Assembly: GCA_025057615.1 (NCBI GenBank)
Contig: JANXBF010000005.1
Span: forward strand, 1 to 56,150
Source of the DNA: Candidatus Calescibacterium sp.
GTDB lineage: Bacteria > DRYD01
Length of the DNA stretch: 56,150 bases
Direction: 5' to 3'
The stretch's first letter is position 1, and every line of letters starts with the position of its first letter. The translations under genes were made by a program, and so were the position numbers. Below, piece by piece: positions 26,845-43,453 of the stretch. The notes under the pieces are model-generated. The model was given only the letters and a program-made list of their open reading frames with translations, ran no database searches and was not told the DNA's origin.

Positions 26845-27239
26845 TGTATGGCGGTAAACTAATAAACCTCATTTGTAGACAATCAGCATTGACATTACTA
26901 AACATCTGTAAATCTCAAAAAAAACCAGAATATGGAGTATATATCAAAATATTAAACAATTTAGCTAGGATATTCTCAATACTTTCTGAATTGGATAGTG
27001 AACTTTATAAGATATATTTGACAAAAAAACAAGAAAAAAAGAAATATTTAAAAAAAATCATAAACTATCCAATTCTATACGGTATAAATTTTTCATTATT
27101 ACTATTATTTTTAACTACAAAGTTGAAACTACACAAATCTTTGAAAGTGGATGTTAAAATAATTCAAAGAACAGTTGTAAATTGTATTATTAGTAACATA
27201 GAATTGTTAAGAGAAAACATGAGAGTTTTTAAAGAATAA
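26844..27239 (+). CDS. Small protein of unknown function
   Basis: A 131-residue basic protein with a hydrophobic stretch near residues 75-92 (ILYGINFSLLLLFLTT) and otherwise helical, Lys-rich sequence. No family is recognised. The start overlaps the prfB stop by one base and its stop overlaps the permease start, so it is very likely a real, co-translated gene. Composition is A/C-leaning like the genes before it, whereas the next gene leans to G/T; the strand-bias switch of the window therefore falls near the end of this gene. Confidence 0.6.
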   Translation: MYGGKLINLICRQSALTLLNICKSQKKPEYGVYIKILNNLARIFSILSELDSELYKIYLTKKQEKKKYLKKIINYPILYGINFSLLLLFLTTKLKLHKSLKVDVKIIQRTVVNCIISNIELLRENMRVFKE

Positions 27240-28060
27240 TGAGATTTTTTTATCTAATTTTTCCATTCATTATTTTTTGGTTGGTGTTTAACGTATTATC
27301 TATAATTTTGGGTATTGTATATGTTTACAAGAATGTGGGGATAGTTGAAAGTTTTTTATTTGTATTGAAGGACCCATTATTTTGGATTTCGTTGAAAAAT
27401 TCATTTGTATACTGTTTAATAGTTATACCACTTCAATTGTTCTCTTTTTTTTTAGCGTTTATGATTTACAGTTTATCAAATAGGTGGGCATCGTTCTTTA
27501 GGATTATCTTGTATTTACCTGTAGTTGTTCCTATAGCAAGTATTGGTTTTGTATTCAAAATAATGTTCAATGATGAAGGAACGATAAATGACTTCTTATT
27601 GAAAATATTTGGATTAAAAATTCCATTTTTATCAAATTACTATTATTCAATGTTAGTTGCGTTTATGTTGACTTTTTGGAAAGGTTTAGGATATTATGTG
27701 GTTATTTATTTATCTTCGTTGTATTCAATATCAAAGGAAATAATAGAGAATTCAGTTATGGATGGGATGAATTTTTTTCAGAGAATGTGGTATATTTATT
27801 TACCATTATTGAAGGGGACCTTCTATTTTGCGTCTTTTTTATCGATGTTAGCGGCATTAAAAGTTTTTGCTGAGATTTTTATTGTTACTGAAGGTGGTCC
27901 AGGAACTTCAACATATACACTGATGATGTATATTTATTCTCGTGCTTTCCATAGTTTTGATCTTCCCACGGCAATAGCTGCTTCACTTATACTTTCATTT
28001 ATTGCGATACTTTTAAGTCTTTTCATATTTAAGAGACAAATAGAGAACATAAAAATTTAG
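27239..28060 (+). CDS. Sugar-type ABC transporter permease, MalF-like
   Basis: A 273-residue inner-membrane permease with six segments. The EAA loop reads NSVMDGMNFFQRMWYIYLPLL (about 178-198), and FIVTEGGPGTSTYTLMMYIY is the hallmark of MalF/UgpA-type subunits of carbohydrate importers. It should pair with the MalG-like permease at 21828. It follows the small unknown gene with one base of overlap and is the last gene before the origin region. G and T strongly exceed C and A on the coding strand, unlike the plus-strand genes upstream. Confidence 0.88.
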   Translation: MRFFYLIFPFIIFWLVFNVLSIILGIVYVYKNVGIVESFLFVLKDPLFWISLKNSFVYCLIVIPLQLFSFFLAFMIYSLSNRWASFFRIILYLPVVVPIASIGFVFKIMFNDEGTINDFLLKIFGLKIPFLSNYYYSMLVAFMLTFWKGLGYYVVIYLSSLYSISKEIIENSVMDGMNFFQRMWYIYLPLLKGTFYFASFLSMLAALKVFAEIFIVTEGGPGTSTYTLMMYIYSRAFHSFDLPTAIAASLILSFIAILLSLFIFKRQIENIKI

Positions 28061-28394
28061 TCATTTTTTAATCTAATTTCTTCATAATATTTAACAAAAT
28101 TTTAATAATTTTTTAACATTTTATTAATATTTAGTTAATAATTTTGTAATATTTGTAATAATTTTGCAATATTTTTGTAATATTTGTCATAATTTTTTAA
28201 CAAAGCAGCATAAATTTTAACAATTGTAACACTTTTTTCATAAAAATTTAACAATTTTGAGTCTTCTATTTATTGGTATAGTAGGAATAGAAGCTACACT
28301 AAAATTTTAACATTTAACATAATTTTGTAACAATTGTATTATTTTTTTTAATATTTTTAACAATAATTTAACATATTTTTAACAAAATTTTCAT

Positions 28395-28450
28395 GTTAAA
28401 TTTGTAAAAATAAAGTTAAATTTGTAAAAATTATGTTAAATTTGTAAAAA
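28395..28450. repeat. Three phased 16-bp direct repeats, 20-bp period
   Basis: GTTAAATTTGTAAAAA occurs identically at 28395-28410, 28415-28430 and 28435-28450, separated by four variable bases. The exact 20-bp spacing inside the AT-rich arm of the origin resembles iterons or a phased initiator-binding array. Confidence 0.85.
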
Positions 28451-28744
28451 ATTTTATATGTTCATTTTTTTGTAATTTTTGTAATAATTTTGTAATAATT
28501 TTAATAATTTTGCAATATTTTTTTAACAAAAATTGTTAAATTTTTTATTTTTAACAAAAATTTAATTTAGTTAACAAATATTTTACAAAATTTGTATATT
28601 TTATATATTGATAATACTATATTACTCGTTTCAAGAAAATTTTTAATATTTTTTATTTTTTTGTAATATTTGTAATAACTCTGTAATAATTGTTAAAAAA
28701 TTTTTAACTTAATTTACATTTTTGTAATAATCAAAAATTAGCAT

Positions 28745-29071
28745 TTTTCCACCCCTTTTTCCATTTTTTCCACATTTTTTCCACATAGTTTTCCACATAC
28801 CCCCAAAATTTTTCCACATCGTTTCACTAAGTTTTCCACATTTTTAACATTTTTTTCCACATGTGGAAAAAATACCCAATTTTTGTGGAAAAATCTTTTC
28901 AAAATGTGGAAAAAGTACCTCAAAGATGTGGAAAAAATGTGGAAAACTTTTTTAAATCAACTTTTTTTTTCCACCCCTTTCCAAATTTTTTCCACATCTT
29001 TTCCACATACCCCAGAACCGAAAAACCTTACAAATACTCAAATTGTGAAAGTTTTCCACAAATGTGGATAA
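28745..29071. repeat. Cluster of DnaA-box-like sites
   Basis: Exact TTTTCCACA on the plus strand at 28766, 28777, 28789, 28810, 28832, 28853, 28988, 28999 and 29052 (first bases). Exact TGTGGAAAA (same site reversed) at 28862, 28884, 28905, 28927 and 28938. The textbook box TTATCCACA is present reversed at 29063-29071. TTTTCCACC variants lie at 28745 and 28967. Spacings of 11-22 bases suit cooperative DnaA loading. The orientation switches at 28861/28862 and back near 28967. Confidence 0.9.
28851..28872. other. 22-bp perfect palindrome at the centre of the DnaA-box cluster
   Basis: Boxes 28853-28861 and 28862-28870 abut head to head to form TTTTCCACATGTGGAAAA, extended by two T/A pairs on each side. 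The symmetry axis marks where box orientation flips from forward to reverse. Confidence 0.9.
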
Positions 29072-29074
29072 TTA

Positions 29075-29117
29075 TACTACTACTGTCTTTAATAATAAAT
29101 ATATATAATAGTAGTAA
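29075..29117. other. TAC/TAG triplet runs next to the consensus DnaA box
   Basis: TACTACTACT (29075-29084) follows the consensus box by 3 bases and TAGTAGTAA (29109-29117) lies 24 bases further on, as an inverted pair around A/T-only sequence. On one strand or the other both give repeated TAG triplets, like the DnaA-trio element on which DnaA opens the duplex. Confidence 0.5.
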
Positions 29118-29265
29118 TACAACTACGAACAGATTTTTTAATATTTTTTTTTAATATTCATTTTCCTATTTTAATCAGTCTTGCTATTTTTTTCTAAAAG
29201 GTAAAAAACTGTATACTCAAGAATTCCTTAAAATGGAAAGTCAAAAATGAATGGAGGTTTTCAAA

Positions 29266-31806
29266 ATGCTAAATCAGAAGCAGGTTTTAAACCACAATCA
29301 AATAAGAACCACTTTCCTAAATTTCTTCGAGAAAAAGGGACATGTTGTACTTAACAGTTTTAGTCTGATTCCGGAGAATGATCCTTCTCTTTTATTTGTT
29401 GCTGCTGGTATGGTTCCATTCAAAGCTGAGTTTGCTGGTAAAATTGAGCCAAAGTACAAAAGGATTAGTACATGCCAAAAATGTTTCAGAATGGATGATA
29501 TAGATAATGTTGGTTGGACTTTGAGGCATCACACTTTTTTTGAAATGCTCGGAAATTTCTCTTTTGGAGACTATTTTAAGAGAGAATCTATTGAGTGGGC
29601 CTATGAGCTTCTTACGGAAGTTTACAAAATAGATTCTTCTAGACTTTACTTCAGTTGTCATCCTGATGACGATGAAGCGGAAGAAGTTTGGTTGAGTTTG
29701 GGAGTTAAAAAAGAGAAGATAGTAAGACTAGAAGATAATTTTTGGGGGCCTGCGGGACCAACTGGCCCCTGTGGACCATCAAGTGAAATATTCTATGAAA
29801 ATTTTCATTGTCCGAATCCCTTATGTAAGCCTGGTTATGAATGTAAGGAATGCGAAAAAAATGAAAGATTCATAGAAATATGGAATATAGTGTTTACACA
29901 GTATTTCAAGGAGTCCGATGGAAGTTTATCTCCTCTCCCACAAAAAAACATAGACACAGGGATGGGATTAGAAAGGCTTACAAAAATTCTCCAAGAAAAA
30001 CCAAATCAATATCAAACAGATCTGTTTTTACCAATCATATCGAGATTGGAAGAATTGGTCCATAAGGATGTAGATGAAGTTTATAAAGAATTGAAGATAA
30101 AATACAATCATGAAAAATATCTGGAAAATAGAGAAGTCTATAAGAGAATAGTGGCTGATCATATTAGGGGGGCGGTTTTTTTACTTGCGGATGGTGTTGT
30201 TCCTTCTAATGAGGGGAGAGGGTATGTTCTCAGAAAACTTATTAGGAGAGCACTGCTTTATTCCAGACTCTTGGGAATAAAAACATCATATCTAAATACT
30301 ATACCTGATATTGTGGAATATATATATCGGGATGTTTATTCTGAAATATCTTCCAGAAAAGAGTATATAAAAAGGATGCTAGAAAATGAAGAAAATGGAT
30401 TTTCTAAAAATTTGTCCAAAGGTATGGATTATTTATCAAAAATTGATTTCAAAAAGCTCACAGGTAAAGATGCTTTCTTTTTATATGATACTTTGGGTTT
30501 TCCCATAGAACTAACTTTGGAAATATCTAAAAGTCAGAACTTTATTATTGATTTAAATGAGTTTTATGAGGAACTTGAGATTCAGAAGCAAAGGTCGCGT
30601 CAAAAATCTGTCGATATAAAAATATTTTCAATAAAGGAAAAGTATTCAACTTCTTTTGTAGGTTATGATCATCTTGATTACCAATCGAAAGTAATTGGTA
30701 TATTGAAGAGAGAAGATGGGAAGCTCAACTCTTTGGATTATTATGAAGATAATGATGAGGTTATACTTGTAGTTGAAGAAACTCCATTCTATCCTGAATC
30801 GGGAGGGCAGGTTGGTGATAAGGGAAGAATATTCAATGAGAATTTTACTTTTATTGTAGATGATACCCAAAAACATGTGGAAGGTTTTGTTTTTCACATA
30901 GGTAGAATTGTTAATGGTTTTGTCAGATTGGGAGATGAGGTTCATTTGTCAGTTGATAAGAAAAGGAGGAAATTGACTGCTATAAATCATACGGCTACGC
31001 ATTTGTTGCATTCTGCCTTGAGAAAAATTTTAGGACATCATGTTTATCAAGCTGGATCTTTAGTTGATTATGATAAATTGAGGTTTGACTTTACTCATTT
31101 TGATAATCTTTCAGATTTGGATGTTAAGAATATAGAGGATTTGGTAAATGAGAAAATATTGGAGAATATTGATGTTGAGGTTTCTTATAAACCTCTAAGA
31201 GTTGCTTTGGATGAGGGTGCTATTGCTCTTTTTGCAGAAAAATATCCTGATTTGGTAAGGACTGTTAGGATTGGAGGTTTTTCCTATGAGCTTTGTGGAG
31301 GAACTCATGTTAAAAATACTTCTGTTATTGGAATATTTAAAATAGTTAGTTCTGGTTCTGTACAGATGGGAGTTAAAAGGTTGGAAGCAATAACATCATT
31401 AAAAGTCTTGGAATTTTCCAGAATTTTGGAACAAAGAAATTCACAATTGAAAAGTATTACTAAACAGGAGGAAAATAATCTTATAAATTATGTTAGTAAG
31501 TTAATGAATGAGAATAAAGAATTGGCTAAGAAAAACAGGGATTTGAAAGTCAAATTTTACAGAAAATATCTAGATGGAATTAATTTTGAAAATAAACCTT
31601 TAGAATTTGAAGTTGAAGAAGAAGAGGACATGTTTATTATTCATGACATTATAAAATTGAAGCAGAAGTATTTTGCTTTTTACAAATTAAAAGATAAGAA
31701 GATAGCTGTATTTCATAAAGATTTTGTGGATTATTTTAAAAATTTAGTAAAAGTGGACAAAATTAGGTTTATACCTTTGGGAGATTACTTTAGGGTAGTA
31801 ATTTAA
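29266..31806 (+). CDS. alaS: Alanyl-tRNA synthetase
   Basis: An 846-residue class II synthetase that charges tRNA-Ala. Seen: SFSLIPENDPSLLFVAAGMVPFK, the RHHTFFEMLGNFSFGDYFK motif, GMGLERL (motif 3), and in the editing domain NHTATHLLHSALR and CGGTHVKNTS with the zinc-binding His and Cys residues. The C-terminal domain is short and divergent. The frame opens at 29251, but GGAGG at 29253-29257 is 8 bases before the ATG at 29266, which is taken as start. First gene on the right side of the origin; the coding strand is strongly G/T-leaning, as for a leading strand. Confidence 0.96.
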   Translation: MLNQKQVLNHNQIRTTFLNFFEKKGHVVLNSFSLIPENDPSLLFVAAGMVPFKAEFAGKIEPKYKRISTCQKCFRMDDIDNVGWTLRHHTFFEMLGNFSFGDYFKRESIEWAYELLTEVYKIDSSRLYFSCHPDDDEAEEVWLSLGVKKEKIVRLEDNFWGPAGPTGPCGPSSEIFYENFHCPNPLCKPGYECKECEKNERFIEIWNIVFTQYFKESDGSLSPLPQKNIDTGMGLERLTKILQEKPNQYQTDLFLPIISRLEELVHKDVDEVYKELKIKYNHEKYLENREVYKRIVADHIRGAVFLLADGVVPSNEGRGYVLRKLIRRALLYSRLLGIKTSYLNTIPDIVEYIYRDVYSEISSRKEYIKRMLENEENGFSKNLSKGMDYLSKIDFKKLTGKDAFFLYDTLGFPIELTLEISKSQNFIIDLNEFYEELEIQKQRSRQKSVDIKIFSIKEKYSTSFVGYDHLDYQSKVIGILKREDGKLNSLDYYEDNDEVILVVEETPFYPESGGQVGDKGRIFNENFTFIVDDTQKHVEGFVFHIGRIVNGFVRLGDEVHLSVDKKRRKLTAINHTATHLLHSALRKILGHHVYQAGSLVDYDKLRFDFTHFDNLSDLDVKNIEDLVNEKILENIDVEVSYKPLRVALDEGAIALFAEKYPDLVRTVRIGGFSYELCGGTHVKNTSVIGIFKIVSSGSVQMGVKRLEAITSLKVLEFSRILEQRNSQLKSITKQEENNLINYVSKLMNENKELAKKNRDLKVKFYRKYLDGINFENKPLEFEVEEEEDMFIIHDIIKLKQKYFAFYKLKDKKIAVFHKDFVDYFKNLVKVDKIRFIPLGDYFRVVI

Positions 31807-40134: not shown

Positions 40135-42138
40135 ATGCAGCAGGTAGAAAATAATGTTTTATTTAGATTTTTATCTTACCTTCTGTGTTTGCTTTCAATT
40201 TGGGGTTATGGGATTTTTATATATTTATCATTGTTTGAACCTGAATTTATACAAAAGTCAATTTTGTATTCTTTTGTTTTGACTTTTGGTTATTTTTGGA
40301 GTTGGAAAAATAGGTATAATAATCAATATTTTGTGAAGGCGATACTTGCTTTGTTGATGATAGGTGTTGCAATATATTTCTTCAGAAGCCTTTCTGAAAG
40401 TATTTATGATCCACGTATTCCTCTACTTGAACTACTTATTTCTTTGCTTTTAATACATAGTTTTGATTTACCAAGAAGAAGGGATATTTTATATTCTATA
40501 ACTTCTACGTTGATTATAGTTATTGTATTGACGGTGGTTTCTTTCTCGAATTGGATAGTTTTGTTCATCATGATTTTTACTTTTTTGTTTTTGGTTACTC
40601 TTTTGGTTATGGATGGTGAGGCTGAGTTCAAAGATTTAAAATTGATATTCAGAATTGGTGCTAGTTTAGCAGTTTTTGTGTTTCTTTTGAGTACCTTTTT
40701 ATTCGTTTTTTTACCTAAACCAAGTGGGGGTTATTTTTTCAGGTTTGTTTTTGCTCCTAAGGGAGATATAACAAATTTGGGACCTTCTGACTCCCCTGAG
40801 GTGGTCCAAAAAAAAGTTGAATCCATATTTTCACAAGCTCATACCTATAAGGGATTCAGAGGAGAGATTGATCTATCCAGTAGAGGGTTATTACCTCATG
40901 TTCTTGTAATGAAAGTTAAGTCTCCTTTTATGACTTACATTAAGGGTATGCATTTGATTTATTATGATGGCAAAAAGTGGTATAATCCAGCTGGTGATGA
41001 TATAACTGTAACATCTGGTGATTATTCTTATTTTTCTTTACCAAATGAATTTGAATATTACAATTATAATGTTATTAACTCTTATTTTATGGTTGTTGAA
41101 GATTTACCTGATATACTTTATCATATTCCTGTTGCTAGTGAAGTTTTTTTCCCTGCCAATTTTCTCAGGATGAGAGATTATAATATATATGCTGAGTATC
41201 CTCTTGTTAAGGGGATAACTTATACTGCTGTTTCTAAAGTTCCATACTTTGATATGAATAAGTTAAAGGAGTTCTCATATGATGAGTATAAGAGATTTAT
41301 TGGAAAGATAATTGAGAGAAATAATTTTTATTACAATTATCTTTCTTTACCAGAAATGCCAATAGAGGTAGAAAGGATATCTGTTGATTTAACTGAGAAT
41401 GAATCTACATTTTGGGGCAAAGTTGAGAAGATTAAGGAATATCTTGAGAATAATTATACTTACGATCTGTTTATAGATGTTCCTAAAACTGATGCTGTAT
41501 ATGATTTCTTATTTATTCAGAAGAGAGGTTATTGTGAGCAATTCGCTAGCTCTTTGGCTGTTATGTTGAGAAAAGTAAATATTCCTGCAAGAGTGGTTTT
41601 GGGTTATGCACCTCAGAAAAAAGACCCTCTTACAGGTTTTATTGAGGTTTATTCTGATGATGCACATGCTTGGGTTGAGGTCTTGACACCTTTTGGTTGG
41701 TTACCTGTTGATCCAACACCTTATAATGTGGATGAACAAACACTTAAATATTTAGAAGATAAAAATAGAGGTTCCAATATTTATCGTATGTTTGGATTAG
41801 ATGAAGAGTTTATTCAAAGATTATCAGTGTTATTTAATTTGACGCTTAGAATATCGGTTATGTTAATTTTCATATTTGTTGTTTATAATCTTTATTTTGT
41901 TTTGAGGAGAGTGTTTATTATAAGGTATTTAGAAAAGATTGATATTAGTAAAATTGACGATAGAGATCTTCTTAGAGTTTTCATGATATTTGTTGAATAT
42001 TTCAAAATGAAGGGCAATGAGTTTCCCAAGGAATTTACTTTGAGAGAAATAAAAGGTCTTTCAATCAATGATCCATTATTTGAAAAGTTTAAGAGTTTTA
42101 TTGATATTTATGAGAGGTACATTTATGGGCCAAAGTAA
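40135..42138 (+). CDS. Transglutaminase-like membrane protein (TgpA/DUF3488 type)
   Basis: A 667-residue protein: about six membrane helices in the first 195 residues, an extracytoplasmic domain, a transglutaminase-like core at about 430-540 with RGYCEQFASSLAVMLRKVNIPARVV (Cys nucleophile), DAHAWVEV (His) and PVDPTP (Asp), then one more membrane helix near 570-590 and a cytoplasmic tail. This is the layout of TgpA-like proteins, whose periplasmic cysteine-protease-like domain has an unsettled substrate. Commonly paired with a MoxR ATPase and DUF58 protein; neither is here. Instead it sits between a kinase gene and a LuxC-like gene that overlaps its end by 14 bases. Confidence 0.85.
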   Translation: MQQVENNVLFRFLSYLLCLLSIWGYGIFIYLSLFEPEFIQKSILYSFVLTFGYFWSWKNRYNNQYFVKAILALLMIGVAIYFFRSLSESIYDPRIPLLELLISLLLIHSFDLPRRRDILYSITSTLIIVIVLTVVSFSNWIVLFIMIFTFLFLVTLLVMDGEAEFKDLKLIFRIGASLAVFVFLLSTFLFVFLPKPSGGYFFRFVFAPKGDITNLGPSDSPEVVQKKVESIFSQAHTYKGFRGEIDLSSRGLLPHVLVMKVKSPFMTYIKGMHLIYYDGKKWYNPAGDDITVTSGDYSYFSLPNEFEYYNYNVINSYFMVVEDLPDILYHIPVASEVFFPANFLRMRDYNIYAEYPLVKGITYTAVSKVPYFDMNKLKEFSYDEYKRFIGKIIERNNFYYNYLSLPEMPIEVERISVDLTENESTFWGKVEKIKEYLENNYTYDLFIDVPKTDAVYDFLFIQKRGYCEQFASSLAVMLRKVNIPARVVLGYAPQKKDPLTGFIEVYSDDAHAWVEVLTPFGWLPVDPTPYNVDEQTLKYLEDKNRGSNIYRMFGLDEEFIQRLSVLFNLTLRISVMLIFIFVVYNLYFVLRRVFIIRYLEKIDISKIDDRDLLRVFMIFVEYFKMKGNEFPKEFTLREIKGLSINDPLFEKFKSFIDIYERYIYGPK

Positions 42139-43453
42139 TTATAAAGCTAACTATGTTTTTGGACACATAATTGAGGAAGTTTTTCCTGATGATCTGAATT
42201 ACATTTTTTCGCTTGCCAGATCCAAAAGAAAAGAAATGTTAAAAAATAGTATTCATGATATTATAAAAGTGATAGACAGAGTCAGCAATTTTTGGTTAGA
42301 TGAAAATAATAAATTTTATCCTTTGGTTTTCCAAAATTTGAATAATTTGGGTTTCAGTCAAGGAATGTTAAAATTAGCAATAAGAGAATTATCGAGAATT
42401 TTTACTTATGAAACTATAGTAAAAAGGATTGGTATTGAGTTGGGTTCTCTGGAGATTTTGGATGGTTGGAAAGGTGAAGATATAAAATTGAGAGCTTTTC
42501 CCGTAGGTGTTCTTACTCATATAACTGCTGGAAATGTTTTTGTTTCTTCTATTGATTCTCTTCTTTGTGGGGTTATCACAAAGAACATCAATATTGTAAA
42601 GACTTCTTCGAAGGTTGGTAATTTTTTTGGTATTTTATGGGTTGAATCTTTAAGAAAAATTGAAGAAGAGTTAGGGATGAAGGGTATTATTTCTGACAAT
42701 ATTGTGATTTTTACCTACAATTCTGATGACTTGATTAGTTATTTGAACAGATATTCTGATGGTTTGGTTGTTTGGGGTTCTTACGAAACTATTAAATTTT
42801 TTGGTTCAAATTTTGACCCTAAGAAAAAATTAATAATGTATGGTCCTAAGTATAGTATTTGTGTTTTGGATGATGTTTCTTTATCCGAAAGTATTGATAA
42901 TGAAGATTTTTATAGATCTTTGGCTTGGGATATATGTTTGTGGGAGCAGCGTGCCTGTTCCTCTGTCCAAACAATATATGTTGTTGGAGATGTTGATTAT
43001 GGTCTATTGGAAGTTTTTGCAAATAGACTCTCTGATAGCATAAAAAATTTTGAAATAGAACAAGGGGAACTGTCTTTTGATGAATACACAGAGATTTTTA
43101 AATATGAGGAGATCGCTTTAGCGAACAGTGTTTTAAAAAACGGAAAGTACTTTGAAAGAGTGTATTTGGATTATTCTTCTGAAGGTTTTTTTGTTGGTCC
43201 TCTCAACAGATTTGTTTGTATTAAAAGAGTCAATACTTTGCATGATCTAATTCATGTATTGTTACCTTATTCCGAAATTTTACAGAGCTGCAGCATTAAA
43301 GTAAAGGATATTGAATTGTACGTTAATGAATTGGCTGGTTGTGGAATAACGAGGTTTGTCGGTTTGGGAAACATAGGGTTTAACGAGATTTTTGTTCCTC
43401 ACGAAGGGGAATATATTTTGAGAAAATTCTGTAAATTGATTTCGAGAGCATAG
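42125..43453 (+). CDS. LuxC-family acyl-CoA reductase
   Basis: About 442 residues related to LuxC, the NADPH-dependent fatty-acyl reductase that makes long-chain aldehydes. Seen: FPVGVLTHITAGNVFVSS (the LuxC dinucleotide-site region with GN), VKTSSK, the GLVVWGSYETIKFFG segment, and the WEQRACSSVQTIYV block with the acyl-accepting Cys. The frame opens at 42068, but GAGAGG 7 bases before the ATG at 42125 marks the start, inside the end of the transglutaminase gene. No luciferase or LuxD/E genes are near. A role in envelope or storage lipids, close to fabZ and lpxA, is possible. Confidence 0.75.
   Translation: MGQSNYKANYVFGHIIEEVFPDDLNYIFSLARSKRKEMLKNSIHDIIKVIDRVSNFWLDENNKFYPLVFQNLNNLGFSQGMLKLAIRELSRIFTYETIVKRIGIELGSLEILDGWKGEDIKLRAFPVGVLTHITAGNVFVSSIDSLLCGVITKNINIVKTSSKVGNFFGILWVESLRKIEEELGMKGIISDNIVIFTYNSDDLISYLNRYSDGLVVWGSYETIKFFGSNFDPKKKLIMYGPKYSICVLDDVSLSESIDNEDFYRSLAWDICLWEQRACSSVQTIYVVGDVDYGLLEVFANRLSDSIKNFEIEQGELSFDEYTEIFKYEEIALANSVLKNGKYFERVYLDYSSEGFFVGPLNRFVCIKRVNTLHDLIHVLLPYSEILQSCSIKVKDIELYVNELAGCGITRFVGLGNIGFNEIFVPHEGEYILRKFCKLISRA

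Follow-up and report, generated by a model that had tools for sequence, protein, structure and literature searches.

Does a gene-free, AT-rich stretch lying between a sugar permease gene and alaS, with neither dnaA nor dnaN in sight, serve as the replication origin of its chromosome? The window, that is, the whole 56,150-bp stretch of Candidatus Calescibacterium DNA that was analyzed, is contig C55 of host assembly G000 (1.40 Mb, 91 contigs, 84% completeness), and an earlier note had placed a chromosomal origin within it on the basis of a dense cluster of DnaA boxes. Our results support that call through a switch in GC skew, an array found only once in the related genome G002, a conserved box geometry and a box pair followed by DnaA-trios. 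We conclude, with high confidence, that positions 28061-29150 represent the chromosomal replication origin (oriC), as judged from sequence features. While this kind of oriC is known, the precise layout is a variant particular to the lineage and features mirrored trios.

For comparison, we used G001-G003, which belong to the same genus, G004 and G005, which represent two species of a sister genus, and G006, from the same order; beyond these, genomes have only the domain in common. The assemblies are all drafts, 71-90% complete, and a search for literature on those of the relatives yielded none.

A phased array of DnaA boxes

The intergenic region from the permease gene to alaS measures 1,190 bp (28061-29250) and contains no credible gene, its sole ORF of more than 80 amino acids being a 97-aa frame across the array, in agreement with the 1.2 kb of gene-free, AT-rich DNA described earlier. 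Elsewhere in the window (42068-43453), a LuxC-type acyl-CoA reductase gene (Pfam PF05893) adjoins a transglutaminase-like gene.

Features of the putative origin and its flanking genes (window coordinates)
Feature	Position	Strand	Remarks
ABC sugar-transport permease gene (MalF/UgpA/GlcT type), left flank	27239-28060	+	NCBIfam matches, below cut-off
AT-rich left arm	28061-28740		680 bp; 12.5% GC; TTTAACA and TTTGTAA repeats
TTTTCCACA boxes (n = 9)	28766, 28777, 28789, 28810, 28832, 28853, 28988, 28999, 29052	+	
TGTGGAAAA boxes (n = 5)	28862, 28884, 28905, 28927, 28938		
TGTGGATAA box (n = 1)	29063	-	TTATCCACA on the minus strand
One-mismatch boxes TTTTCCACC (n = 2)	28745, 28967		
Rightward group, six exact boxes TTTTCCACA	28766-28861	+	10.5-11 bp phasing
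Leftward group, five exact boxes	28862-28946	-	Head to head with the left group at 28861/28862
Third group	28967-29007	+	One-mismatch box 28967 and exact boxes 28988 and 28999
DnaA-box pair TTTTCCACA/TGTGGATAA	29052-29071		Seeds the unwinding element; conserved in all six genomes
DnaA-trios	29076-29084	-	Top ACTACTACT, bottom 3'-TGATGATGA-5'; separated from the box pair by 4 bp
AT core between the trio blocks	29085-29108		GTCTTTAATAATAAATATATATAA, nearly pure AT
Mirrored trio block	29109-29116	+	TAGTAGTA; polarity opposite to the first trios
Third trio-like block	29122-29128	-	ACTACGA; ACTAC here in all six genomes
alaS (alanine--tRNA ligase), right flank	29251-31806	+	TIGR00344, 821 bits vs cut-off 457

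Counting both strands, 15 exact DnaA boxes (14 TTTTCCACA and one TTATCCACA) are found within 306 bp (28766-29071), whereas 0.015 would be expected from the base composition of the local 340-bp stretch. The cluster thus lies far above chance, and the nine, five and one boxes listed in the earlier note, together with its statement that chance occurrence is negligible, hold exactly. The array contains 14 of the 44 exact TTTTCCACA sequences of the whole assembly, in which the reversed pattern, used as a control, is matched 24 times. Although the interval originally indicated (28061-29180) is adequate in extent, the unwinding element at 29052-29128 had been overlooked.

A predicted unwinding element with mirrored trios, and its conservation

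The box pair to the right of the array, which reads TTTTCCACAAATGTGGATAA, is convergent, and its right member is the sole TTATCCACA in the window. The bottom strand of the adjacent ACTACTACT presents 3'-GAT-5' trios. A basal unwinding system has been defined as a DnaA box accompanied, within 16 bp, by three or more NAN trinucleotides (PMC8287927); here, 4 bp separate the box at 29063-29071 from ACTACTACT, and the box pair, the 4-bp gap and the three trios match the system described previously (PMC8287927, PMC6669920). A putative AT-rich unwinding element adjoins the boxes. In all six genomes (that of the window and G001-G005), the first trios are followed by 19-28 nearly pure AT bases, an inverted TAGTAG(TA) and then ACTAC, the inverted block starting 28-37 bp after the first. 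Together, the trio blocks form an inverted repeat.

Matches to a strict pattern consisting of box, trios and inverted trios were confined to the window genome and G001-G005 in a survey that covered 380 other genomes as well. This shows that the exact form is specific to the lineage; mirrored trios of another form may occur elsewhere. In a one-sided survey (TGTGGAWAA plus ACTACT, 386 genomes, with a reversed control), the other matches occurred at about the frequency of the control and appear chance-like, this pattern being too strict to gauge how frequent trios are.

The order permease gene, AT-rich arm, array and alaS is kept in G001-G003 (AlaS identity 67-94%). In G004 and G005, on the other hand, the array lies in a different neighborhood, flanked by a gene for a Rieske-type protein (named by eye from its translation) and, at its far end, by other genes, while alaS is located on a different contig. 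Either the array and unwinding element moved or their surroundings did, and they stayed intact. In G006, a similar array is found at a contig end (C58, 12-188), with all boxes in one orientation and the rest of the origin off the contig; no trios were seen there.

Box geometry is conserved to the right of the central dyad (TTTTCCACA/TGTGGAAAA). Offsets in the window are 0, 22, 43, 65, 76, 104/105, 126, 137, 190 and 201, and those in G001-G003 are equal to them within about 1 bp. The sister genus (0, 22, 43, 55, 66, 94, 115, 126, 179, 190) has about one helical turn removed between offsets 43 and 65. Left of the dyad, box number and spacing are more variable among genomes. Identity between the window and G002 amounts to 89% in boxes and 51% outside, and that between the window and both G004 and G005 to 99% and 52%, respectively. 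Such conservation of box position and sequence with diverged filler would be expected for a helically phased platform for a DnaA filament.

Given that the array is found directly upstream of alaS and that the trio blocks constitute an inverted repeat, the region could instead regulate alaS or the permease operon, for instance as a DnaA-controlled promoter or a leader RNA. This is exceedingly unlikely: the same array and unwinding element occur apart from alaS, in the unrelated neighborhood of G004 and G005, which argues against a regulator of either gene; 15 boxes far exceed regulatory need; and the sequence before alaS gave no match to a T-box or other leader RNA in Rfam.

Within the origin, the left arm holds 12 forward TTTAACA and 13 forward TTTGTAA, where about 2 each would be expected counting both strands, and many of the 60-bp windows with the lowest stability in the 56 kb. 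Phasing of TTT runs at ~10.2 bp exceeds that in every one of 300 shuffles for the window as well as for G002 and G003, whereas in G001, G004 and G005 it is not clearly above shuffles. The same kind of arm is present in G001-G003. Arms of the sister genus are longer and carry TTGAC-N4-GTCAA palindromes instead of the repeats of the window: 12 and 9 TTGA[CT]-N4-[AG]TCAA palindromes, often 30, 82-83, 109 or 132-138 bp apart, were counted in G004 (L100, 8313-9965) and G005 (L101), respectively. The arm is probably a helper element for melting or bending. As a separate observation, the directional TTTAACA and TTTGTAA repeats at 28061-28740 are a possible second protein-binding or curved-DNA array. 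A strand signal of the E. coli TTGT/TTATT type was considered for the arm and rejected, TTGT being somewhat enriched and TTATT not.

Skew, uniqueness and alternative functions of the array

Third-position GC skew was computed separately for the genes on each strand, at a resolution of 15 genes. Left of the array it is -0.17 for plus-strand and -0.09 for minus-strand genes of the window, and right of the array it is +0.36 and +0.42, respectively, so that it switches from negative to positive at this site on both gene strands. G002 carries the region on contig C18 in the opposite orientation; in contig direction, skew changes from -0.37/-0.18 to +0.20/+0.11 (plus/minus genes), rising across the array on either reading strand. 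These two loci show the largest strand-corrected upward steps (0.52 each, the next being 0.42), while raw skew in G002 has other steps of comparable size. The step maximum lies 1.5 kb from the array in the window and 6 kb from it in G002, within resolution. Most other long G002 contigs have a single skew sign for both gene strands. On contig C5 of G002, skew turns from plus to minus at ~73-79 kb, and this region may hold the terminus; a search of G002 with the dif sites of E. coli and B. subtilis returned nothing convincing.

In G000, dnaA belongs to contig C91 and dnaN to contig C20, so neither adjoins the array, which is not a dnaA-linked origin. The absence of dnaA from the locus, pointed out in the earlier note, is thereby confirmed, but the location is less odd than was implied there: the E. 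coli origin also lies away from dnaA (PMC8287927), and Ori-Finder notes the same for some species (PMC10225481). The dnaA neighborhood itself is unusual (L001, 41-1430 of C91), with purine nucleoside phosphorylase-like and macrodomain-like genes, named by eye from their translations, lying upstream. A rival box cluster beside dnaA, for which a check had been proposed, was not found when the dnaA locus and the G000 assembly were scanned. A second origin in the missing DNA of G000 is possible. In the 1.54 Mb of G002 that were scanned, 15 exact boxes per 300 bp were counted at the array and never more than one elsewhere. Eight one-mismatch boxes at C5:130735 of the same genome proved to be a low-complexity coding repeat and were rejected.

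An array of head-to-head boxes, an arrangement also seen in DARS (PMC10316083), with no dnaA nearby, might titrate or reactivate DnaA in the manner of E. coli datA or DARS rather than initiate replication. We regard this as very unlikely. A site of that type would be a cluster without an unwinding element and away from a skew switch, whereas here skew switches at the array, which has trios and an AT-rich unwinding element next to it, and G002 is without any other cluster able to be the origin.

Dense repeats can also mark plasmid iterons, and the array might belong to an integrated or separate plasmid or to a secondary replicon. There is next to no likelihood of this, since alaS, prfB, mfd and flagellar export genes lie on the same contig, the repeats consist of genuine DnaA boxes whose orientation changes, a Rep gene is absent next to the array and the skew switch extends over tens of kb.

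Proposed initiation mechanism and comparison with known origins

DHTT, the box-reading motif of DnaA, is kept in the protein encoded by G000, and the genome carrying the array thus also encodes a DnaA with the classical box-reading domain. The protein aligns with B. subtilis DnaA (8btg) over domains III-IV and retains the single-strand contacts V and K and the SRF arginine finger, residues whose roles have been described (PMC10316083, PMC8287927). Profile searches of G000-G006 yielded neither a DnaD family member nor DciA above cut-off. No separate DnaC/DnaI-type loader was found either, as PF01695 matched only dnaA genes above cut-off in these drafts, which may lack genes but agree with one another on loader absence.

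For a chromosomal origin at this locus, we propose that DnaA, supplied from dnaA elsewhere on the chromosome, would bind the phased array (28766-29007) as a pair of filaments that face each other and join at the head-to-head dyad. Next, DnaA would be directed by the isolated box pair to the bottom strand at the ACTACTACT trios, from where it would open the AT core, with unwinding predicted at 29076-29108. Helicase would presumably be loaded there, and forks would depart in both directions. More speculatively, the top strand may be captured by the inverted TAGTAG block, and a helper role, through melting or bending, may fall to the left arm.

The means by which a bacterial origin positions two helicases, one on each strand, has been stated to be unsolved (PMC10721633, PMC10201434), and DnaD is the proposed second-strand marker in B. 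subtilis. The mirrored trios suggest DnaA loading on both strands, and their presence on both strands together with the lack of DnaD and DciA permits a model with DnaA as the marker of both strands, thereby placing two replicative helicases for bidirectional replication. No DnaA box able to seed the inverted block was seen to its right, an observation that speaks against a complete second unwinding element, and we put this two-sided model forward as a tentative one, with the odds clearly against it. If it were true, trios on first the bottom and then the top strand would let DnaA alone position both helicases. With trios on both strands and no recognizable DnaD, this compact natural origin would allow the ability of DnaA alone to mark both strands to be tested directly. 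Moreover, a lineage that is uncultured and represented by very few genomes now has a well-supported origin, which is linked to neither dnaA nor dnaN and has been kept as a portable unit in two different gene neighborhoods.

The arrangement resembles that of B. subtilis incC/oriC, where a box pair at the array edge is followed within a few bases by trinucleotides (consensus 3'-GAT-5') and where helical phasing of the boxes matters (PMC6669920, PMC8287927). In contrast to B. subtilis, the present origin lies away from dnaA and dnaN, its box pair is convergent instead of tandem, its array has dyad symmetry and greater length, another trio block, in inverted orientation, begins 28-37 bp after the first, and a DnaD family member above cut-off was not found in this lineage.

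Trios that adjoin AT-rich DNA, inverted boxes and phased spacing are shared with T. maritima oriC, the unwinding element of which contains three essential TAG repeats of the same kind as the B. subtilis trios (PMC10316083). That origin has five divergent boxes ACCTACCAC (PMC10316083), as opposed to 15 classical 9-mers here, and T. maritima DnaA is without DHTT and reads a different box, whereas the present DnaA keeps this motif. Like E. coli oriC, finally, the origin is not located beside dnaA and comprises two facing box groups of opposite orientation, yet trios are weak in E. coli (PMC8287927) and strong at the present origin.
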